DNA from: Candidatus Rokuibacteriota bacterium
GTDB lineage: Bacteria; Methylomirabilota; Methylomirabilia; Rokubacteriales; CSP1-6
Reading direction: 5' to 3'
Length of the DNA: 64,000 nucleotides
NCBI GenBank assembly: GCA_003220435.1
Contig: QHSL01000059.1
Location: 1 to 64,000, forward strand
The notes beneath the pieces were generated by a model. It saw only the letters and a program-made list of their open reading frames with translations. It searched no databases and was not told the DNA's origin. This document shows, one piece after another, positions 37,568-61,887 of the stretch (position 1 is its first letter; every line of letters begins with the position of its first letter). The position numbers were made by a program, and so were the translations under genes.

Positions 37568-40969
<3,402 letters not shown>

Positions 40970-40987
40970 AGAGTTATAGTAGCGCAC
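40970..40987. promoter_or_regulatory. Bidirectional leaderless promoter (metH / CoA transferase)
   Basis: The full gap is 18 bp. On the plus strand TATAGT (40975-40980) ends 7 bases before the ATG at 40988. On the minus strand TACTAT (40981-40976) ends 6 bases before the ATG at 40969. The two boxes overlap almost completely, so one symmetric A/T element can serve both genes. Any -35 contacts would fall inside the coding sequences. Confidence 0.6.
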
Positions 40988-42184
40988 ATGACGACCTCGG
41001 CCCTCTCGCTCGATGGCGTTCGCATCCTCGATCTCTCACGCGTTCTCGCCGGGCCCTTCTGCGGCATGCTGCTCGCGGACCTGGGCGCGGACGTCATCAA
41101 GGTGGAGGACACCGGCCCGGGCGACGAGTCACGCACGTGGCCCCCGCACAAGGATGGCGAGTCGGCGGCCTACCTCGTCATCAACCGCAACAAGCGGGAT
41201 CTCACGCTCGATCTCAAGTCTCCGGACGGGGCCGCGGTGCTGAAGAAGCTCGCGGCGGGCGCGGACGTGCTCATCGAGAACTTCCGCACCGGCACCATGG
41301 AGAGCTTCGGCCTGGGCTACGACACGCTCTCCCAAATCAACCCGGGGTTGATCTACTGCTCGGTCTCGGCGTTCGGGCGCACGGGGCCGCGAAAGGACGG
41401 CGCGGGCTACGAGGCGCTCATGCAGGCGTTCAGCGGGATCATGTCCATCACCGGCGAGCCCGACGGGCCGCCGGTCCGCGCCGGCGTCTCGTTCCTCGAC
41501 CTCACGACCGGAATCTTCTCGGCGTTCGGGATCGTCAATGCGCTCCTCTATCGCGCGAAGACCGGGCTCGGCCAGCGCGTCGACGGCTCGCTGCTGGAGA
41601 CGGCCGTGACGCTGCTGAACTATCACGCCGAAGGCTACTTGCTGACGGGGAGCGTGCCGAAGGCTCTCGGCTCAGCCCATCCGTCGCTCTCGCCCTACCG
41701 CAACTTCCGCTGCCGCGACGGTCAGTGGGTGTTCATTGCCGGCGCCAACGACCGATTCTGGCAGAAGCTCGTGGGGGCGCTCGACCTCGCCGCGCTGCGC
41801 GACGAGCGGTTCGCGACCAACCTGGGGCGCGTCCGGCATCGCGCCGAGCTGGAGGCGGCGGTCGCCAAGGCGATCGGGGCCTTCGAGCGCGAGCCTCTGC
41901 TGAAGCTCCTGGAAGACGCCGGAGTGCCGGCGACGCCGGTGAATACCGTGGACCAGGTCATGGACGACCCGCAGACCGTGGCGCGCCACATGATCGAGCG
42001 CGTCCTGCACCCGCGGCTCGGCGAGATTCCGGTCATCGGCACGCCGGTGAAGTTCTCGCGGATGCGCCCGGGCGCCCGTACAGCGGCGCCGCTCCAGGGC
42101 GAGCACACCGACGAGGTCCTGGCTGAGTTCGGTTACTCGGCCGACGAGATCAGCGCGCTGCGGGCCAAGAAGGTCGTCCGGTAG
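40988..42184 (+). CDS. CaiB/BaiF family acyl-CoA transferase
   Basis: A 398-residue class III CoA transferase. The N-terminal motif RILDLSRVLAGPFCGMLLADLGADVIKVE is of the family type, the catalytic Asp lies in AGVSFLDLTTGIFSAFG and the C-terminal part has VPATPVNTVDQV. Such enzymes move CoA between carboxylic acids through an aspartyl-CoA anhydride. The acid substrate is unknown. The start is fixed by the very short divergent promoter; the gene is followed by a hairpin at 42205. Confidence 0.9.
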   Translation: MTTSALSLDGVRILDLSRVLAGPFCGMLLADLGADVIKVEDTGPGDESRTWPPHKDGESAAYLVINRNKRDLTLDLKSPDGAAVLKKLAAGADVLIENFRTGTMESFGLGYDTLSQINPGLIYCSVSAFGRTGPRKDGAGYEALMQAFSGIMSITGEPDGPPVRAGVSFLDLTTGIFSAFGIVNALLYRAKTGLGQRVDGSLLETAVTLLNYHAEGYLLTGSVPKALGSAHPSLSPYRNFRCRDGQWVFIAGANDRFWQKLVGALDLAALRDERFATNLGRVRHRAELEAAVAKAIGAFEREPLLKLLEDAGVPATPVNTVDQVMDDPQTVARHMIERVLHPRLGEIPVIGTPVKFSRMRPGARTAAPLQGEHTDEVLAEFGYSADEISALRAKKVVR

Positions 42185-56295: not shown

Positions 56296-57786
56296 TCAGG
56301 GTTTGCGCCAGGTGCCGCCGTCGTGGGCGATGAACGCGTCGGCTTCGGTGGGGCCCCAGGAGCCGGCTTCGTAGAGGTAGGGTTGCGCCGCCGAATCCTG
56401 GGCCCACGCGTCGAGCACCGGACCCAGCAGCCACCATGCGTGCTCGACCCAGTCGGCGCGCGCGTACAGCGTCGAGTCGCCGTGGACTGCGTCCAGCAAG
56501 AGCCGCTCGTAGGCTTCGGGCGGCTCGGCGCCGAACACTTCCCCGTAGCGGAAGTCCAGTCCGACCGTCCCGAGCTTGAGCTCGGGACCCGGCGTCTTCG
56601 CCGCGACCGTCAGCGCCATGCCCTCGTCGGGCTGGATCCGAATCACGAGCTCGTTCGGCTCGACGCCGGACGGATCCCGATGGAAGATCATGTGCGGGGT
56701 GCCGTGGAACCGAATGGCGATCTCGCTCACGCGCTTGGCCATGCGCTTGCCCGTCCGCAGATAGAAGGGCACGCCGGCCCAGCGCCAGTTGTCCACGAGC
56801 AGCCGGAGCGCCGCGTACGTGTCGGTCTTCGAATCGGGTGCGACGCCCTTCTCGTGCCGGTAGCCGACGACCGGCTTGCCGTCGACGAACCCAGGGCCGT
56901 ACTGGCCGCGGAGGGCGACCTCGTCGACCTTGCGCGGGTCGATGGGCCGGATCGCGTGCATCACCTTGTTCTTCTCGTCGTGCACCGGGCCGGCGTCGAA
57001 CGTCACCGGCGGCTCCATCGCGAGGAGGCACAGGAGCTGGAGCAGATGGTTCTGCATCATGTCGCGTAGCGCGCCGGCCTCTTCGTAGTACGCGCCACGC
57101 GTTTCGACCCCGAGGGACTCGGCGACGGTAATCTGCACCTCGGCCACGTGGTTGCGGTTCCACAACGGCTCGAAGATCCCGTTGGCGAACCGGAGCACGA
57201 GCAGGTTCTGGACGGTCTCCTTCCCGAGGTAGTGGTCGATGCGGTAGATCTGCTCCTCGCGGAAGACCGCGCCGAGCTGGCTGTTGACCGCTCGCGCGCT
57301 CTCGTGATCGCGCCCGAACGGCTTCTCGACGATGATGCGGGTCCAGCCGCCCTGGGGGCGCGCCAGCCCCGAGGCCCCCAGGTTACGGATGATCGTGTCG
57401 TAGAGGCTCGGCGGCGTCGCACAGTAGAAGAGACGATTCGCGGGGCCCGGGCGGGCGCCCTCGATGTCCCGCAGGGCGCGCTCGAGCTTCGCGTAGAGCG
57501 CGGGATCGGCCGGATCGCCCGGCACGTAAGAGAGCGCCGACGCGAACCGGTCCCAGACGTTCTCGGACGGCGGCTTCACGCGCGCGAACTCGCGGACGGC
57601 CGCGCGCATACGCCGGCGAAACTCGTCGGCGCTCCCCTCGCTGCGGGCGCTCCCGACGATCGCGAAGGGCTCGGGCAGCGTGCGCCCGGCGTAGAGGCTC
57701 CAGAGCGCGGGCACGAGCTTGCGGCGAGTGAGGTCTCCCGACGCTCCGAGGATCACGAGCGCGAACGGCTCGTCCGTCCTGGACAT
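56296..57786 (-). CDS. zwf: Glucose-6-phosphate 1-dehydrogenase
   Basis: A 496-residue enzyme that oxidises glucose-6-phosphate to the lactone, producing NADPH. The nucleotide motif VILGASGDLTRRKLVPAL (residues 10-27), the phosphate site IVEKPFGRD and the catalytic motif RIDHYLGKETVQN (active-site His) are intact. It is the last gene of the kinase-pgl-zwf operon, three bases after pgl. The next enzyme of the oxidative pentose-phosphate path (gnd) is not in the window. Confidence 0.95.
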   Translation of the reverse strand: MSRTDEPFALVILGASGDLTRRKLVPALWSLYAGRTLPEPFAIVGSARSEGSADEFRRRMRAAVREFARVKPPSENVWDRFASALSYVPGDPADPALYAKLERALRDIEGARPGPANRLFYCATPPSLYDTIIRNLGASGLARPQGGWTRIIVEKPFGRDHESARAVNSQLGAVFREEQIYRIDHYLGKETVQNLLVLRFANGIFEPLWNRNHVAEVQITVAESLGVETRGAYYEEAGALRDMMQNHLLQLLCLLAMEPPVTFDAGPVHDEKNKVMHAIRPIDPRKVDEVALRGQYGPGFVDGKPVVGYRHEKGVAPDSKTDTYAALRLLVDNWRWAGVPFYLRTGKRMAKRVSEIAIRFHGTPHMIFHRDPSGVEPNELVIRIQPDEGMALTVAAKTPGPELKLGTVGLDFRYGEVFGAEPPEAYERLLLDAVHGDSTLYARADWVEHAWWLLGPVLDAWAQDSAAQPYLYEAGSWGPTEADAFIAHDGGTWRKP

Positions 57787-57789
57787 ACG

Positions 57790-58545
57790 CTAGCAGGCCT
57801 GGCCGACTTGCAGGAGCGCCGCGGCCGCGCGATCCACGAGCCAGATGAGCTCGCCGTCCGTCGGTCGCACCATCGTGGCGGGCAGCGTCGCCCGCTCGTC
57901 CAGCGCCTTCCTGAGAATCTTGGCCTTCTCGGCACCGGTGACCAGGAACAGGACCCGGGCCGCCGCGTTCAGCACGGGGAACGTGAGCGTCAGCCGCTCC
58001 GGGATCTGCGCTGCCGCCACGTGCGCCGCCGCGACCGAGCGGAAGCGCTCAAGGAGCACCGGTGAGTTCGGGAACAGGGAGGCCGTGTGGCCGTCGACGC
58101 CGAGGCCGAGGAGCACGAGATCGAAGCGCGGAAGCTCGCCGCGCCGGGTTCCGAAGGCGTCGGCCAGCGCCACCGCGTAAGCGGCGGCGGCCGCCTCGGC
58201 GTCGGCATCCTCGCCCCGCATCCGGACGACCTGGGCCGGCGCCACCGGCACGCGCGACAGAAGCGCTTCGTGCGCCATCCGATAGTTCGAGTCGGCGTCA
58301 TCCGGCGGCACGGCGCGCTCGTCACCGAAGAAGATCCACGTCCGGTCCCACGGGATGCGCGCGCTGTACGGCGAACACGCGAGCCGCGCGTACGACGCGC
58401 GCGGCGTCTCGCCCCCGGCCAGACAAAGCATGAAGCGCCCGCGCGCCTCGACCGCTTCGTTCGCGGCCTCGACGACGAGCTGGGCCGTGCTCTCGGCGAG
58501 TCCGTTCGCATCCGCGCAGATTGTGACGCTGGCGTCCGATCCCAT
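57790..58545 (-). CDS. pgl: 6-phosphogluconolactonase (DevB type)
   Basis: A 251-residue lactonase that hydrolyses 6-phosphogluconolactone, the product of Zwf encoded just downstream. Typical segments: CLAGGETPRASYARLA, WIFFGDERAVPPDDADSNYRM read across, FDLVLLGLGVDGHTASLFP and the VTGAEKAKIL C-terminal motif. ATG 58545 is chosen; an in-frame ATG at 58566 would overlap the upstream kinase gene. The sugar kinase gene ends seven bases upstream. Confidence 0.93.
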   Translation of the reverse strand: MGSDASVTICADANGLAESTAQLVVEAANEAVEARGRFMLCLAGGETPRASYARLACSPYSARIPWDRTWIFFGDERAVPPDDADSNYRMAHEALLSRVPVAPAQVVRMRGEDADAEAAAAAYAVALADAFGTRRGELPRFDLVLLGLGVDGHTASLFPNSPVLLERFRSVAAAHVAAAQIPERLTLTFPVLNAAARVLFLVTGAEKAKILRKALDERATLPATMVRPTDGELIWLVDRAAAALLQVGQAC

Positions 58546-58552
58546 ACTTTGA

Positions 58553-59995
58553 TCATACCCTCTCATCGAAGCGCCGCTGGCGATCTAGCGCCTCACGGTA
58601 GCGCGCATGACGCGCCCGGTCGGGTGTGAACGCCTCGCCCAGCGGCTGGCGGGCGACGTCGAGGTCCGGCAAGGCCCCCAGTGCCTCCAGGGTGAGCAGC
58701 GCGACACCGCGGCTAGTGGCTTCGGGCTCCGACGACCACGTGATGGGGCGCCCGAGGGCGTCGGCCACGATCTGCGTCCAGGCGCGGGAGCGGCCGAGCG
58801 CCCCCCCGGAGGCCACGATCGTGTGATCGCCCGACGCGCAGGGCGCGAGCAATTCGTAGACCATCGCGAGTCGCAGGGCCACGGCCTCGAGGGCGGCCCG
58901 CAAGATCTCGACACCTGTCGTGTCCAGGCGGAGGCCGCGGATCGCCCCCCGCCGCTCACCGCGCCAGCCCGGCGATCGCTCCCCGGCCAGGTGCGGGAGC
59001 ACGGTCAGTCCGTGGCCGTCGGGCTCCAGCGCGGCGAGGGCCGCCTCGAGTTCCTCATCGGGCGCGAGTTTCAGAACTTGGCGACACCAGGCGTAGACGT
59101 TTCCGCCTTCTGAAGTCGCGCCGCCGACCACGGCGCGCCGCTCGTCCACGCGGTAGCGCCAGAGCCCACGCGGCGGCGCCACTGGAGCCCGTGTCACGAC
59201 CCGCATGGCGGCGGAGGTGCCGACGTTGAGCGCAATGCGCGTCGGGTCCACGCAGTCGGAGCCCACATTGCTCGCGGCGCCGTCACCGACGGCCGGGAAC
59301 CAGCTCGCGACTCGCAGCGCGGGCCACCGCGCCGCCCACGGCGCGCGCAGGTCGCGGCGCCGCTCGGCCCGTCCGCTGAGGGGAAAGAGACGCTGCTCAT
59401 CGATCTCGGCCGCGGCCAGCGCTTCGGCGTCCCATCGTCCGGCCGCCTGATCGAAGAGCCCGGTGGCCGACGCCATCGAGAGGCTCGTCGTCGCCTCGCC
59501 GAAGAGCGAGAGCTCGAGAAACTCACCGAAGGAGCCCCACCGCACCGCGCGCCGGGATTCGGCCGGGCGCTCGCGCGAGAGCCACCGGAGCTTGGCGGGC
59601 CAGTACGACGAATGCAGGTGACAACCCGTGCGTCCGTGAAGAGCGTCGTCGTCGAGCGCCGAGCGGAGCAGCTGCGCGTCGCGAGCGCTTCGAGTGTCGG
59701 CCCACATGTAGACGGGCGTGATCGGCCGACCGCTCGCATCGAATCCCAGGAGCCCATGCCAGAAGGTCGTCACGCCGACCGCGCGCGTCTCGCCTGGGGG
59801 TCGATTCGGGTGCACGCCGTCGAGGCACGAGGCGACCGCGTCCAGCAGTCGGGCCGCGTCGTGCTCGACGCCGCCGTCCGGCGTCACCGTGGGTGAGTAG
59901 TGCACCTGGTGCGATCGCCCATGGATCGGACGCCCGCCTTCGTCGTAGAGCGCGGCGCGGGCCGACGAGGTCCCGACGTCGAGCGCGATCACCAC
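58553..59995 (-). CDS. FGGY-family carbohydrate kinase (gluconokinase-like)
   Basis: A 480-residue sugar kinase of the FGGY fold. It has the phosphate-1 motif IALDVGTSSARAALYD at the start, the substrate-binding TFWHGLLGFDASGRPITP, and the adenosine motif IVASGGALGRSRAW. With pgl and zwf downstream, gluconate is the most likely substrate (giving 6-phosphogluconate), but xylulose- or glycerol-like sugars cannot be excluded. The GTG at 59995 begins the protein directly at its first strand; the divergent partner gene starts 18 bp away. Confidence 0.86.
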   Translation of the reverse strand: MVIALDVGTSSARAALYDEGGRPIHGRSHQVHYSPTVTPDGGVEHDAARLLDAVASCLDGVHPNRPPGETRAVGVTTFWHGLLGFDASGRPITPVYMWADTRSARDAQLLRSALDDDALHGRTGCHLHSSYWPAKLRWLSRERPAESRRAVRWGSFGEFLELSLFGEATTSLSMASATGLFDQAAGRWDAEALAAAEIDEQRLFPLSGRAERRRDLRAPWAARWPALRVASWFPAVGDGAASNVGSDCVDPTRIALNVGTSAAMRVVTRAPVAPPRGLWRYRVDERRAVVGGATSEGGNVYAWCRQVLKLAPDEELEAALAALEPDGHGLTVLPHLAGERSPGWRGERRGAIRGLRLDTTGVEILRAALEAVALRLAMVYELLAPCASGDHTIVASGGALGRSRAWTQIVADALGRPITWSSEPEATSRGVALLTLEALGALPDLDVARQPLGEAFTPDRARHARYREALDRQRRFDERV

Positions 59996-60013
59996 TGGAG
60001 TAAGATAGCGCCC
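59996..60013. promoter_or_regulatory. Bidirectional leaderless promoter (sugar kinase / 60014 gene)
   Basis: Again an 18-bp gap. Plus strand: TAAGAT (60001-60006) ends 7 bases before ATG 60014. Minus strand: TATCTT (60007-60002) ends 6 bases before GTG 59995. The overlap and distances are identical to those at 40970-40987. Confidence 0.6.
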
Positions 60014-60232
60014 ATGGCGGACAGCTGGGAAATTCTGACGCTGAGAGGGCTGGCGTCGACCGACGAGCGCGCCGAGCGATTCACGGGCACGCTCGTCATC
60101 CATCGCGAGAGCAGCACGGAGCCGGTGGAGTCCGTCTCGGTGTCGATCAAGCGGACGGTGCTCGCCGAGCTCCACGAGAACCTCGGGCGCCTGCTCGCCC
60201 GATCCACCGGGATCAAACGGAGATCCTCATGA
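60014..60232 (+). CDS. Small protein of unknown function preceding the UGSC gene
   Basis: A 72-residue cytosolic protein beginning MADSWEILTLRG, mainly beta with a C-terminal helix and a basic tail (TGIKRRSS). No family is recognised. It is transcribed from the 18-bp bidirectional promoter and its stop overlaps the ATG of the UGSC selenoprotein gene (ATGA), so the two are translated together and probably work together. Confidence 0.65.
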   Translation: MADSWEILTLRGLASTDERAERFTGTLVIHRESSTEPVESVSVSIKRTVLAELHENLGRLLARSTGIKRRSS

Positions 60233-61887
60233 ACAGGATTCGCGTCCTCAGCCCGATCGGAGTCACGAAGGGTGAGACCCTGAGCGTGCCGCCGCTGCCC
60301 GGATCGCTCGCGGGCCGCACGGTCGGCTTCCTCGACAACACGAAAGCGAATTTCGACCAGCTCGCCGATGAGATCGGTGCGTTCCTACGCGCCGAGCACG
60401 GCGTCAAGGCCGTCATTCGGCGTCGCAAAGCCAATGCCTCGACGCCGGCCGCGCCGGAGATCCTGGCCGGTCTGGCGAAGGATTGCGACGTCGTCTTTGC
60501 CGGGTCGGCTGACTGAGGATCGTGCACGTCGTGGAGTCTCCACGACGCCATCGAGCTGGCGAAGGCGGGCACGCCTGCCGGCGTGATCGGGACGACCGCG
60601 TTCCGGGGGCTCGCGGTGAGCGAGCTCGGCGCCCTCGGCATCACCGGCTTGCCCATGGTCGTCGTCGAGCACCCGCTCGGCGGCGAGCGGAGCGAAGGGA
60701 TATCACGCCGCGCCCGCCAGGCCACCGACCAGCTCACCGCACTGCTGAGCTGCGCGGCGCGTGAGATCGGGCGAACGGAGCCGGCAAGCGCTGTTGTAGC
60801 GGGGTCCGTGAGGCCGGCTTCGACCGAGGGTGGCCTGAGAGAGAGTCTTGCCGGCTCCGTTCGCCCGATCTCACCCGAGACGCTCGAGACATTAGATACC
60901 CCCGACGCGGTGCTCGCCGCCTTCTGCGAGCGCGAATGGTGCGACGGGCTGCCAATCGTGCCGCCGACCGAGGAGCGCGTGCGTGCGATGCTGGGCGGCG
61001 CCCCGGCGGAGCGGCCGCTCGGCGCGATGCCTCCGCTCTGGCGCCAGGCGACGCTCGAGAAGCTCGCCGTCAACGCCGTGATGGCCGGCTGCGAGCCTTC
61101 GTATTTTCCCGTGATCGTGGCCGCGGTGCAGGCGATGCTCGATCCCTCGTTCAACCTCTACGGCGTCCAGGCCACGACGCATCCGGTCGCCCCGCTCCTG
61201 ATCGTGCATGGGCCGGCCGCGCTCGAGCTCGGCGTGCACGCCGGCAGCGGTTGCTTCGGCCCGGGCTTTCGCGCGAACGCGACGATCGGCCGGGCGATCC
61301 GCTTGATCATGCTGAACGTCGGCGGCGCCTGGCCCGGCCGCTACGACATGGCCACCCAGGGGAGCCCCGCGAAGTTTTCGTATTGCATCGCGGAACGCGC
61401 GGACGCGCCGTGGGGACCGCTCTACGCCGACAACGTGGTGACCGTGTTCGGCGGCGAGCCGCCGCACAACGTGAACGACCACGTGTCGACGACCGCCGCC
61501 GGGATCCTCGCGACCGTCGCCGACACCGCCGTGTCGCTTGGCTCGAACGTGGGCTGGTATTTCTCCCTGAGCCAGCTGCTCATCGTGCTCGGCCCCGAAC
61601 ACGCGCGGACCATCGCGGGCGACGGCTTCAGCCGGGCCGACGTCCAGCGGTTCGTCTTCGAGCACGCGCGATTGCCGCTGCGGACGCTGAAGCTCGGCGG
61701 GATGTGGGGCATCCAGGACTGGCCGCGCTGGATGCACGCCGTCACCGACGACGACGCGCTCATGCCGCAAGTGCCGTCGCCGGAGGACGTGCTGATCATC
61801 GTCGCGGGAGGTCCCGGCAAGCACTCGGCGGTGGTGCCGAACTGCACCTTCAGCCGGGCCGTGTCGCGCGCGATCCGGCCGCTGTGA
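60229..61887 (+). CDS. UGSC-family selenoprotein with large C-terminal domain, UGA at 60514
   Basis: One 553-codon gene with an in-frame TGA at 60514-60516 read as Sec96. The codons around it spell FAGSAD-U-GSCTSWSLHDAIELA, exactly the U-G-S-C motif that names this family, followed by TPAGVIGTTAFRGLA and LPMVVVEHPLGG. Residues 1-170 are the UGSC domain. About 38 residues (178-216) are encoded by a repeat element. Residues 217-552 are a second domain (DGLPIVPPTEERVRAML, GSGCFGPGFRANATIGRAIRL, GGPGKHS) that I cannot name. A SECIS-type hairpin follows the UGA. The reaction is unknown; the U-x-x-C geometry suggests redox chemistry. Confidence 0.87.
60527..60547 (+). promoter_or_regulatory. Putative bacterial SECIS hairpin (UGSC gene)
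   Basis: CGTCGTGG (60527-60534) pairs perfectly with CCACGACG (60540-60547). The five-base loop is AGUCU (or GUC if A-U closes), with G near its start, and begins 18 bases after the UGA. The loop closely resembles GGUCU of the E. coli fdhF element. Confidence 0.8.
60761..60874 (+). repeat. 114-bp inverted-repeat element inserted in frame in the UGSC gene
   Basis: The first 28 and last 28 bases are perfect reverse complements. The length is a multiple of three and contains no stop in the gene's frame, so it adds 38 residues between the two protein domains. The central part recurs at 11582-11649. No direct target repeat is obvious at the flanks. This is probably a small non-autonomous mobile element of the host lineage. 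Confidence 0.8.

Follow-up and report, generated by a model that had tools for sequence, protein, structure and literature searches.

The 18-bp interval at positions 59996–60013 of the window, by which we mean the whole 64,000-nucleotide stretch of DNA analysed here, probably serves as a minimal bidirectional promoter that gives rise to two leaderless transcripts. The interval, tggagtaagatagcgccc, separates the GTG start codon of a sugar kinase gene (59995, minus strand) from an ATG at 60014 (plus strand). The initial annotation had described an 18-bp gap in which the hexamers TAAGAT and TATCTT overlap and stand 7 and 6 nt from the two start codons; direct reading confirmed this layout exactly and placed both hexamers in a palindrome, TANNNTA, at 60001–60007 (gap positions 6–12). 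A repeat of the arrangement at 40970 had also been claimed, and the same 7/6 layout was indeed found there, in a gap bounded by the ATG of metH (40969, minus strand) and the ATG of a CoA-transferase gene (40988). The features concerned are as follows.

59996..60013, no strand: putative leaderless bidirectional promoter gap, read from the sequence and kept in relatives
60001..60006, plus strand: −10 element TAAGAT, 7 nt 5′ of ATG 60014
60002..60007, minus strand: −10 element TATCTT, 6 nt 5′ of the kinase GTG, with a 5-bp overlap with TAAGAT
58553..59995, minus strand: FGGY-family sugar kinase (Pfam PF00370, PF02782)
57790–58545, minus strand: 6-phosphogluconolactonase, after the kinase on the same strand (Pfam PF01182, PF02781 and PF00479 across this enzyme and the next)
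56296–57786, minus strand: glucose-6-phosphate dehydrogenase, same strand as the kinase
60014..60232, plus strand: 72-aa conserved protein with no assigned family, first gene of the plus-strand unit
60229..61887, plus strand: UGSC-family selenoprotein gene (PF24696 match divided between two ORFs that share a frame)
40970..40987, no strand: the other 18-bp gap, with TATAGTA at 40975–40981
37568..40969, minus strand: metH, B12-dependent methionine synthase (PF02574, PF00809, PF02607, PF02310, PF02965)
40988..42184, plus strand: CoA-transferase family III (PF02515)

At all four starts bordering the two gaps, the first T of TANNNT was located 12–13 bp upstream, and no Shine–Dalgarno (SD) sequence was found between the −10 and the start of any of the four genes; a GGAG close to the 60014 gene sits upstream of its −10. 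Reciprocal −7T/−11A pairs were present on both strands at 60001–60007 and at 40975–40981. Forward −18 is occupied by the T of CAT at the metH site and, in this genome, by C at the kinase site; reverse −18 is G in both cases. A consensus promoter scan of the 59996–60013 region returned no −35/−10 promoter. The start calls of all four genes look right, because the FGGY_N Pfam match begins at kinase residue 1 and each of the four proteins, compared by eye, has its first residue in the same place in the close relatives examined. A second in-frame GTG lies 3 bp inside the kinase gene, and its use would give a gap of 21.

In the mechanism that we propose, the TANNNTA core would serve as a sigma-70-type −10 element for either strand, the critical −11A of each pairing with the equally critical −7T of its opposite. 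Counted from this −10, the canonical start sites would be the initial G of the kinase GTG and the base immediately 5′ of ATG 60014, 18 bp apart, and ribosomes would initiate on an AUG or GUG at or beside the mRNA 5′ end. Any −35 contacts would lie within the first codons of the opposite gene, and the neighbouring genes on each side presumably form operons. According to PMC12825309, opposing polymerases are unable to occupy one such promoter together. From this we infer that RNA polymerase would bind 59996–60013 in one orientation at a time and that two units would compete for one element, the kinase/6-phosphogluconolactonase/glucose-6-phosphate dehydrogenase side against the selenoprotein side. 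Start sites, leaderless translation and competition at this locus are all predictions read from the letters.

Putative leaderless-type promoters are a feature of the genome of this soil bacterium (147 contigs totalling 5,436,074 bases; G and C each make up 34% of the sampled stretches). Genes were called with a home-made codon-usage caller, the start calls of which are imprecise. The unselected set comprised 98 stretches covering 1.63 of the 5.44 Mb, with 1507 genes having upstream sequence, and left out L083, L084, the window and later stretches picked for motif-bearing sites or contigs. Among these 1507 genes TANNNT lay 6 nt from the start codon 35 times, 7 nt 33 times and 8 nt 16 times, while positions further upstream had a background of 5.8 each (Poisson P 1e-30 for the 6–8 nt peak). 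Among genes outside operon-like positions in all stretches, none of the other XY...Z patterns, 64 in all, was as enriched at 6–7 nt as TANNNT (80 vs 12.8). At divergent genes, 68 TANNNT boxes showed the extended −10 G in 62% and a weak T/G excess at the would-be −35.

An SD-like 4-mer was present in 594 of the 1507 genes. SD motifs accompanied 5 of the 84 genes with a start-adjacent TANNNT −10, compared with 589 of the 1423 others. The missing SD was dropped as proof of leaderlessness, since the lack is shared by further G-free hexamers in that position; TA...T ranks 12th of 27 among them.

A leaderless-type −10 was also seen before the start of a phosphoribosyltransferase gene, which we take to be adenine phosphoribosyltransferase, at five loci in which no credible divergent gene faces it (L104, L106, L109, L112 and L117; PF00156 shown for L104). 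The element is TAAGATA there, except for TAGGATA in L112. These loci represent a candidate one-way example of the same promoter type.

Symmetric elements between divergent genes were sought in the whole genome. The pattern CAY-N4-7-TANNNTA-N4-7-RTG matched 17 sites, compared with 30 for the backwards control. Both sides were coding at five of the 17, as judged by eye from ORF length and codon score, with gaps of 18, 18, 18, 18 and 21 bp. Two of the five are the window sites 59996–60013 and 40970–40987. With CAT/ATG ends and flanks of 3–8, the genome held 12 sites vs 2 for the control. The remaining three coding pairs, and a sixth contributed by the CAT/ATG search, were:

C52, gap 18: molybdopterin-binding dehydrogenase / phosphoesterase family (Pfam)
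C120, gap 18: MoeA / RDD family (Pfam)
C144, gap 21: molybdopterin oxidoreductase / 101-aa protein without a Pfam match
C82, gap 20, the sixth pair: 165-aa ORF / 55-aa cysteine-rich ORF, both found in a genus relative

C32 (gap 17) was scored as one-sided, its 217-aa ORF facing one of 58 aa with a codon score of about 0. C49 and C124 lie outside the 17 sites and appear only among the CAT/ATG matches; C49 is not coding. The whole-genome chance expectation was about 0.6 pairs, a rough figure scaled from sampled gene calls unlike those that yielded the six, and gave a Poisson P of 4e-5 for six pairs and 0.003 for four beyond the two in the window.

Across 85 start-codon combinations with gaps of 13–23 bp, TANNNTA was found 6 times vs 0.23 expected, the highest observed/expected ratio among the 16 palindromes of its form; of those 6 cases, three came from the window (one pair twice) and two from motif-selected stretches. 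In the 98 unselected stretches the excess was weak (1 vs 0.18 expected). That small excess, like the looser pattern falling below its backwards control, would suit an origin by chance, with AT-rich bases in a short gap happening to form a palindrome. Such an accident is nevertheless extremely improbable, given that several unrelated gene pairs keep their elements from genus to genus and that orthologue groups with coding sequence on both sides were found as described below. Raw pattern counts were abandoned as proof after the controls; the evidence for a class is stronger from the coding-checked genome list and from conservation.

Conservation was followed at the kinase site by means of orthologues of the 60014 gene, which were identified from their protein sequence, independently of the motif (30 loci, including that of the window). 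In 24 of the 30 a TANNNT precedes the ATG by 6–7 nt, and 22 of the 30 have TAAGAT. The kinase start was 17–20 bp away in 12 loci, 25–39 bp in seven and at least 43 bp in two, and was not found or not credible in the other nine. Such a pattern could be produced by a one-way leaderless promoter, in which TAAGAT drives the unit of the 60014 and UGSC genes only and the kinase is served by another promoter or by weak leakage: the spacing from the element to ATG 60014 is preserved, the kinase lies anywhere from 17 to 39 bp away or is not found, and the genus member L258 keeps the element while an adjacent kinase was not found. TANNNTA, moreover, needs just one base beyond the TANNNT of a single direction.

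We nonetheless regard the one-way explanation as unlikely. The A that completes the reverse −10 (60007) was kept in 12 of 12 loci at gap 17–20 vs 4 of 7 at gap 25–39 (P = 0.036, without kinship correction). In three other genera (L267, L270 and L274) the gap is 25–26 bp and contains ATTGTAAGAT, in which two −10 boxes stand back to back with TA in common (TACAAT + TAAGAT), so that the kinase has a TACAAT of its own, 8–9 nt from its start. The metH site also speaks for use in both directions. Of 26 family genomes in which metH has a close match, 17 retain its motif, TATAGTA, at the start of the gene and nine lack it; the gap in those 17 is 18 bp in 14 and 16, 19 and 21 bp once each.

The element was absent in six of the 30 loci, which are among the more diverged, and five of these six have SD-like letters; the start position is inexact in L280–L282. 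On this comparison, the promoter of the 60014 gene would be the older function, with its shared use probably added in part of the family.

Over 35 family genomes, TANNNTA gave 198 raw matches; the backwards pattern reached 106, TTNNNAA 164 and ATNNNAT 429. Being lower than the ATNNNAT total, the TANNNTA count proves nothing by itself. Coding sequence was required on both sides instead, and was present at 44 of 122 distinct CAT/ATG sites from the genome itself, the genus and family loci, which fell into 27 orthologue-pair groups, at least one of which (L236, gap 15) resembles a false gene. A first tally had given 36 of 98, on a different site set and before the threshold was tightened. The motif searches in the 26 family genomes outside the genus listed 122 sites (62 + 60), a set other than the 122 distinct sites above, and 94 of these loci were read, yielding 98 matches with some places doubled. 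Of the 28 unread sites, 11 were taken as metH, kinase or moeA orthologues by their matched letters, and 17 were left out; the latter include many gaps of 20–23, so the gap tally may lean low. Flank lengths of 5–7 were found in 46 of 54 group cases vs 106 of 156 at other sites (P = 0.014).

Intervals between divergent genes are a usual location of operators, and the core is an inverted repeat in such an interval, as would be expected of a palindromic operator for a shared regulator. The comparison of sites makes this very improbable. The cores of the symmetric sites read TATAGTA, TAAGATA, TATTCTA and TATAATA, with only TA and TA in common; the three middle bases and the flanks vary among gene pairs, and what is kept is the distance to both start codons.

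The initial annotation had taken the shared spacing as the sign of a promoter class and had proposed, as a check, an excess of divergent gaps of 18 bp. The class has held up: comparison of these sequences gives good evidence that, in this lineage, shared symmetric −10 elements form a class of promoters for divergent genes. The exact spacing has not. In the unselected 1.63 Mb, gap 18 showed no peak, with 7 start-codon combinations where each gap length from 13 to 23 had 6.2 on average; the most frequent gap was 22, with 11 combinations. A peak at 18 was likewise absent in 1.0–2.1 Mb, whether best-call starts or all start combinations were counted. The test has low power, as there are about six true pairs per genome and part of the genome was covered; with so few pairs, the missing peak counts against 18 bp as a mark and not against the class.

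The 27 orthologue groups have gaps mostly of 17–21 bp with a mode of 19, and the gaps predicted by convolving two single-gene −10-to-start spacers have the same mode, with no difference between the two over 17–21 (chi-square P = 0.28). Gap 18 was found in three to four of the 27 groups, two groups having tied modes. Since about 22% of shared −10 pairs are expected at gap 18, it is unremarkable that both window sites have it. The class therefore looks real, but 18 bp is not its mark; the spacing is an ordinary outcome of leaderless geometry and not a special signal. It is the leaderless implication, absent from the initial annotation, that accounts for the spacing.

Both components of the proposed arrangement are already known. 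In symmetric promoters, the −7T of either strand coincides with the −11A of the other when the start sites are separated by 18 bp (PMC10268837), and according to PMC12825309 the commonest start-site distance in bidirectional promoters is 18 bp, with 10 and 23 bp also common. Divergent start sites 7–25 bp apart characterise this type of promoter; the distance predicted here from the −10 positions is 18 bp. The bidirectional promoters of Warman, Grainger and colleagues (PMC12825309, PMC10268837) resemble the present sites in having one −10 on both strands with −7T and −11A paired reciprocally, in the 18-bp commonest distance and in a poorly conserved −35. The present sites differ in that the start codons stand at the predicted start sites, so that the gap would be the promoter core alone, and in that the published preference for T at −18 of each start site is seen only in part. 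The ATTGTAAGAT layout at gap 25–26 resembles another published spacing, that of 23 bp (PMC12825309).

Leaderless genes with an adjacent TANNNT (PMC3160421, PMC12340547) share with the present genes a first T about 12 bp upstream, a high-GC genome and the presence of SD-led genes alongside. Neither "bidirectional" nor "divergent" appears in the main text of these two papers, and PMC3160421 mentions neither "NC10" nor "Methylomirabilis". In the literature searched, as judged from titles and with the founding paper of 2021 outside the set, a shared −10 with both start codons at start sites was not found. Leaderless genes in connection with Rokubacteria were not found in it either, and in connection with "Methylomirabil" only by way of one reference list.

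In its widest form, which we put forward tentatively and with slightly less than even confidence, the proposal is that Rokubacteria have recurrent and conserved doubly leaderless bidirectional promoters that couple unrelated genes, with the orientation of the polymerase acting as a see-saw, for example between metH and the CoA-transferase gene. The start codons would at once be the two +1 sites and, in part, the −18 element of the opposite direction, and the control region would be reduced to about 16–21 bp. If this is true, promoters and transcription start sites could be read directly from the genomes of a little-cultured lineage, as start codons about 16–21 bp apart around TANNNTA would fix both start sites to within about one base. 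It would also link two phenomena described separately, symmetric promoters and leaderless genes, and the conserved gene pairs would be material for studying polymerase competition.

On the plus-strand side of the kinase gap, the 72-aa protein (60014–60232) had no match in Pfam or NCBIfam. Matches to it were found in 32 of the 59 related genomes searched, its own included, and the seven named loci with the protein all belong to Candidatus Rokuibacteriota MAGs. Its gene lies directly upstream of that for the UGSC selenoprotein, and the protein is possibly a partner of the latter.

In the UGSC gene, an in-frame TGA at 60514–60516 is followed by GGA TCG TGC (U-G-S-C) and then by a hairpin, and this TGA is probably decoded as selenocysteine. 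The genome contains a tRNA-Sec match of 69.8 bits (cut-off 47), and the read-through protein scored 123.3 bits against NF041046, slightly below the cut-off of 125. The hairpin is not unusual (z −0.98), and there was no Rfam SECIS match at the gene. A gene finder stopping at the TGA would split the gene (60229–61887). Further inside the same ORF, at 60761–60874, Rfam microRNA models gave sub-threshold matches on both strands; being under the family cut-offs, these hardly indicate a bacterial microRNA, and they may reflect a long inverted repeat within the coding sequence.
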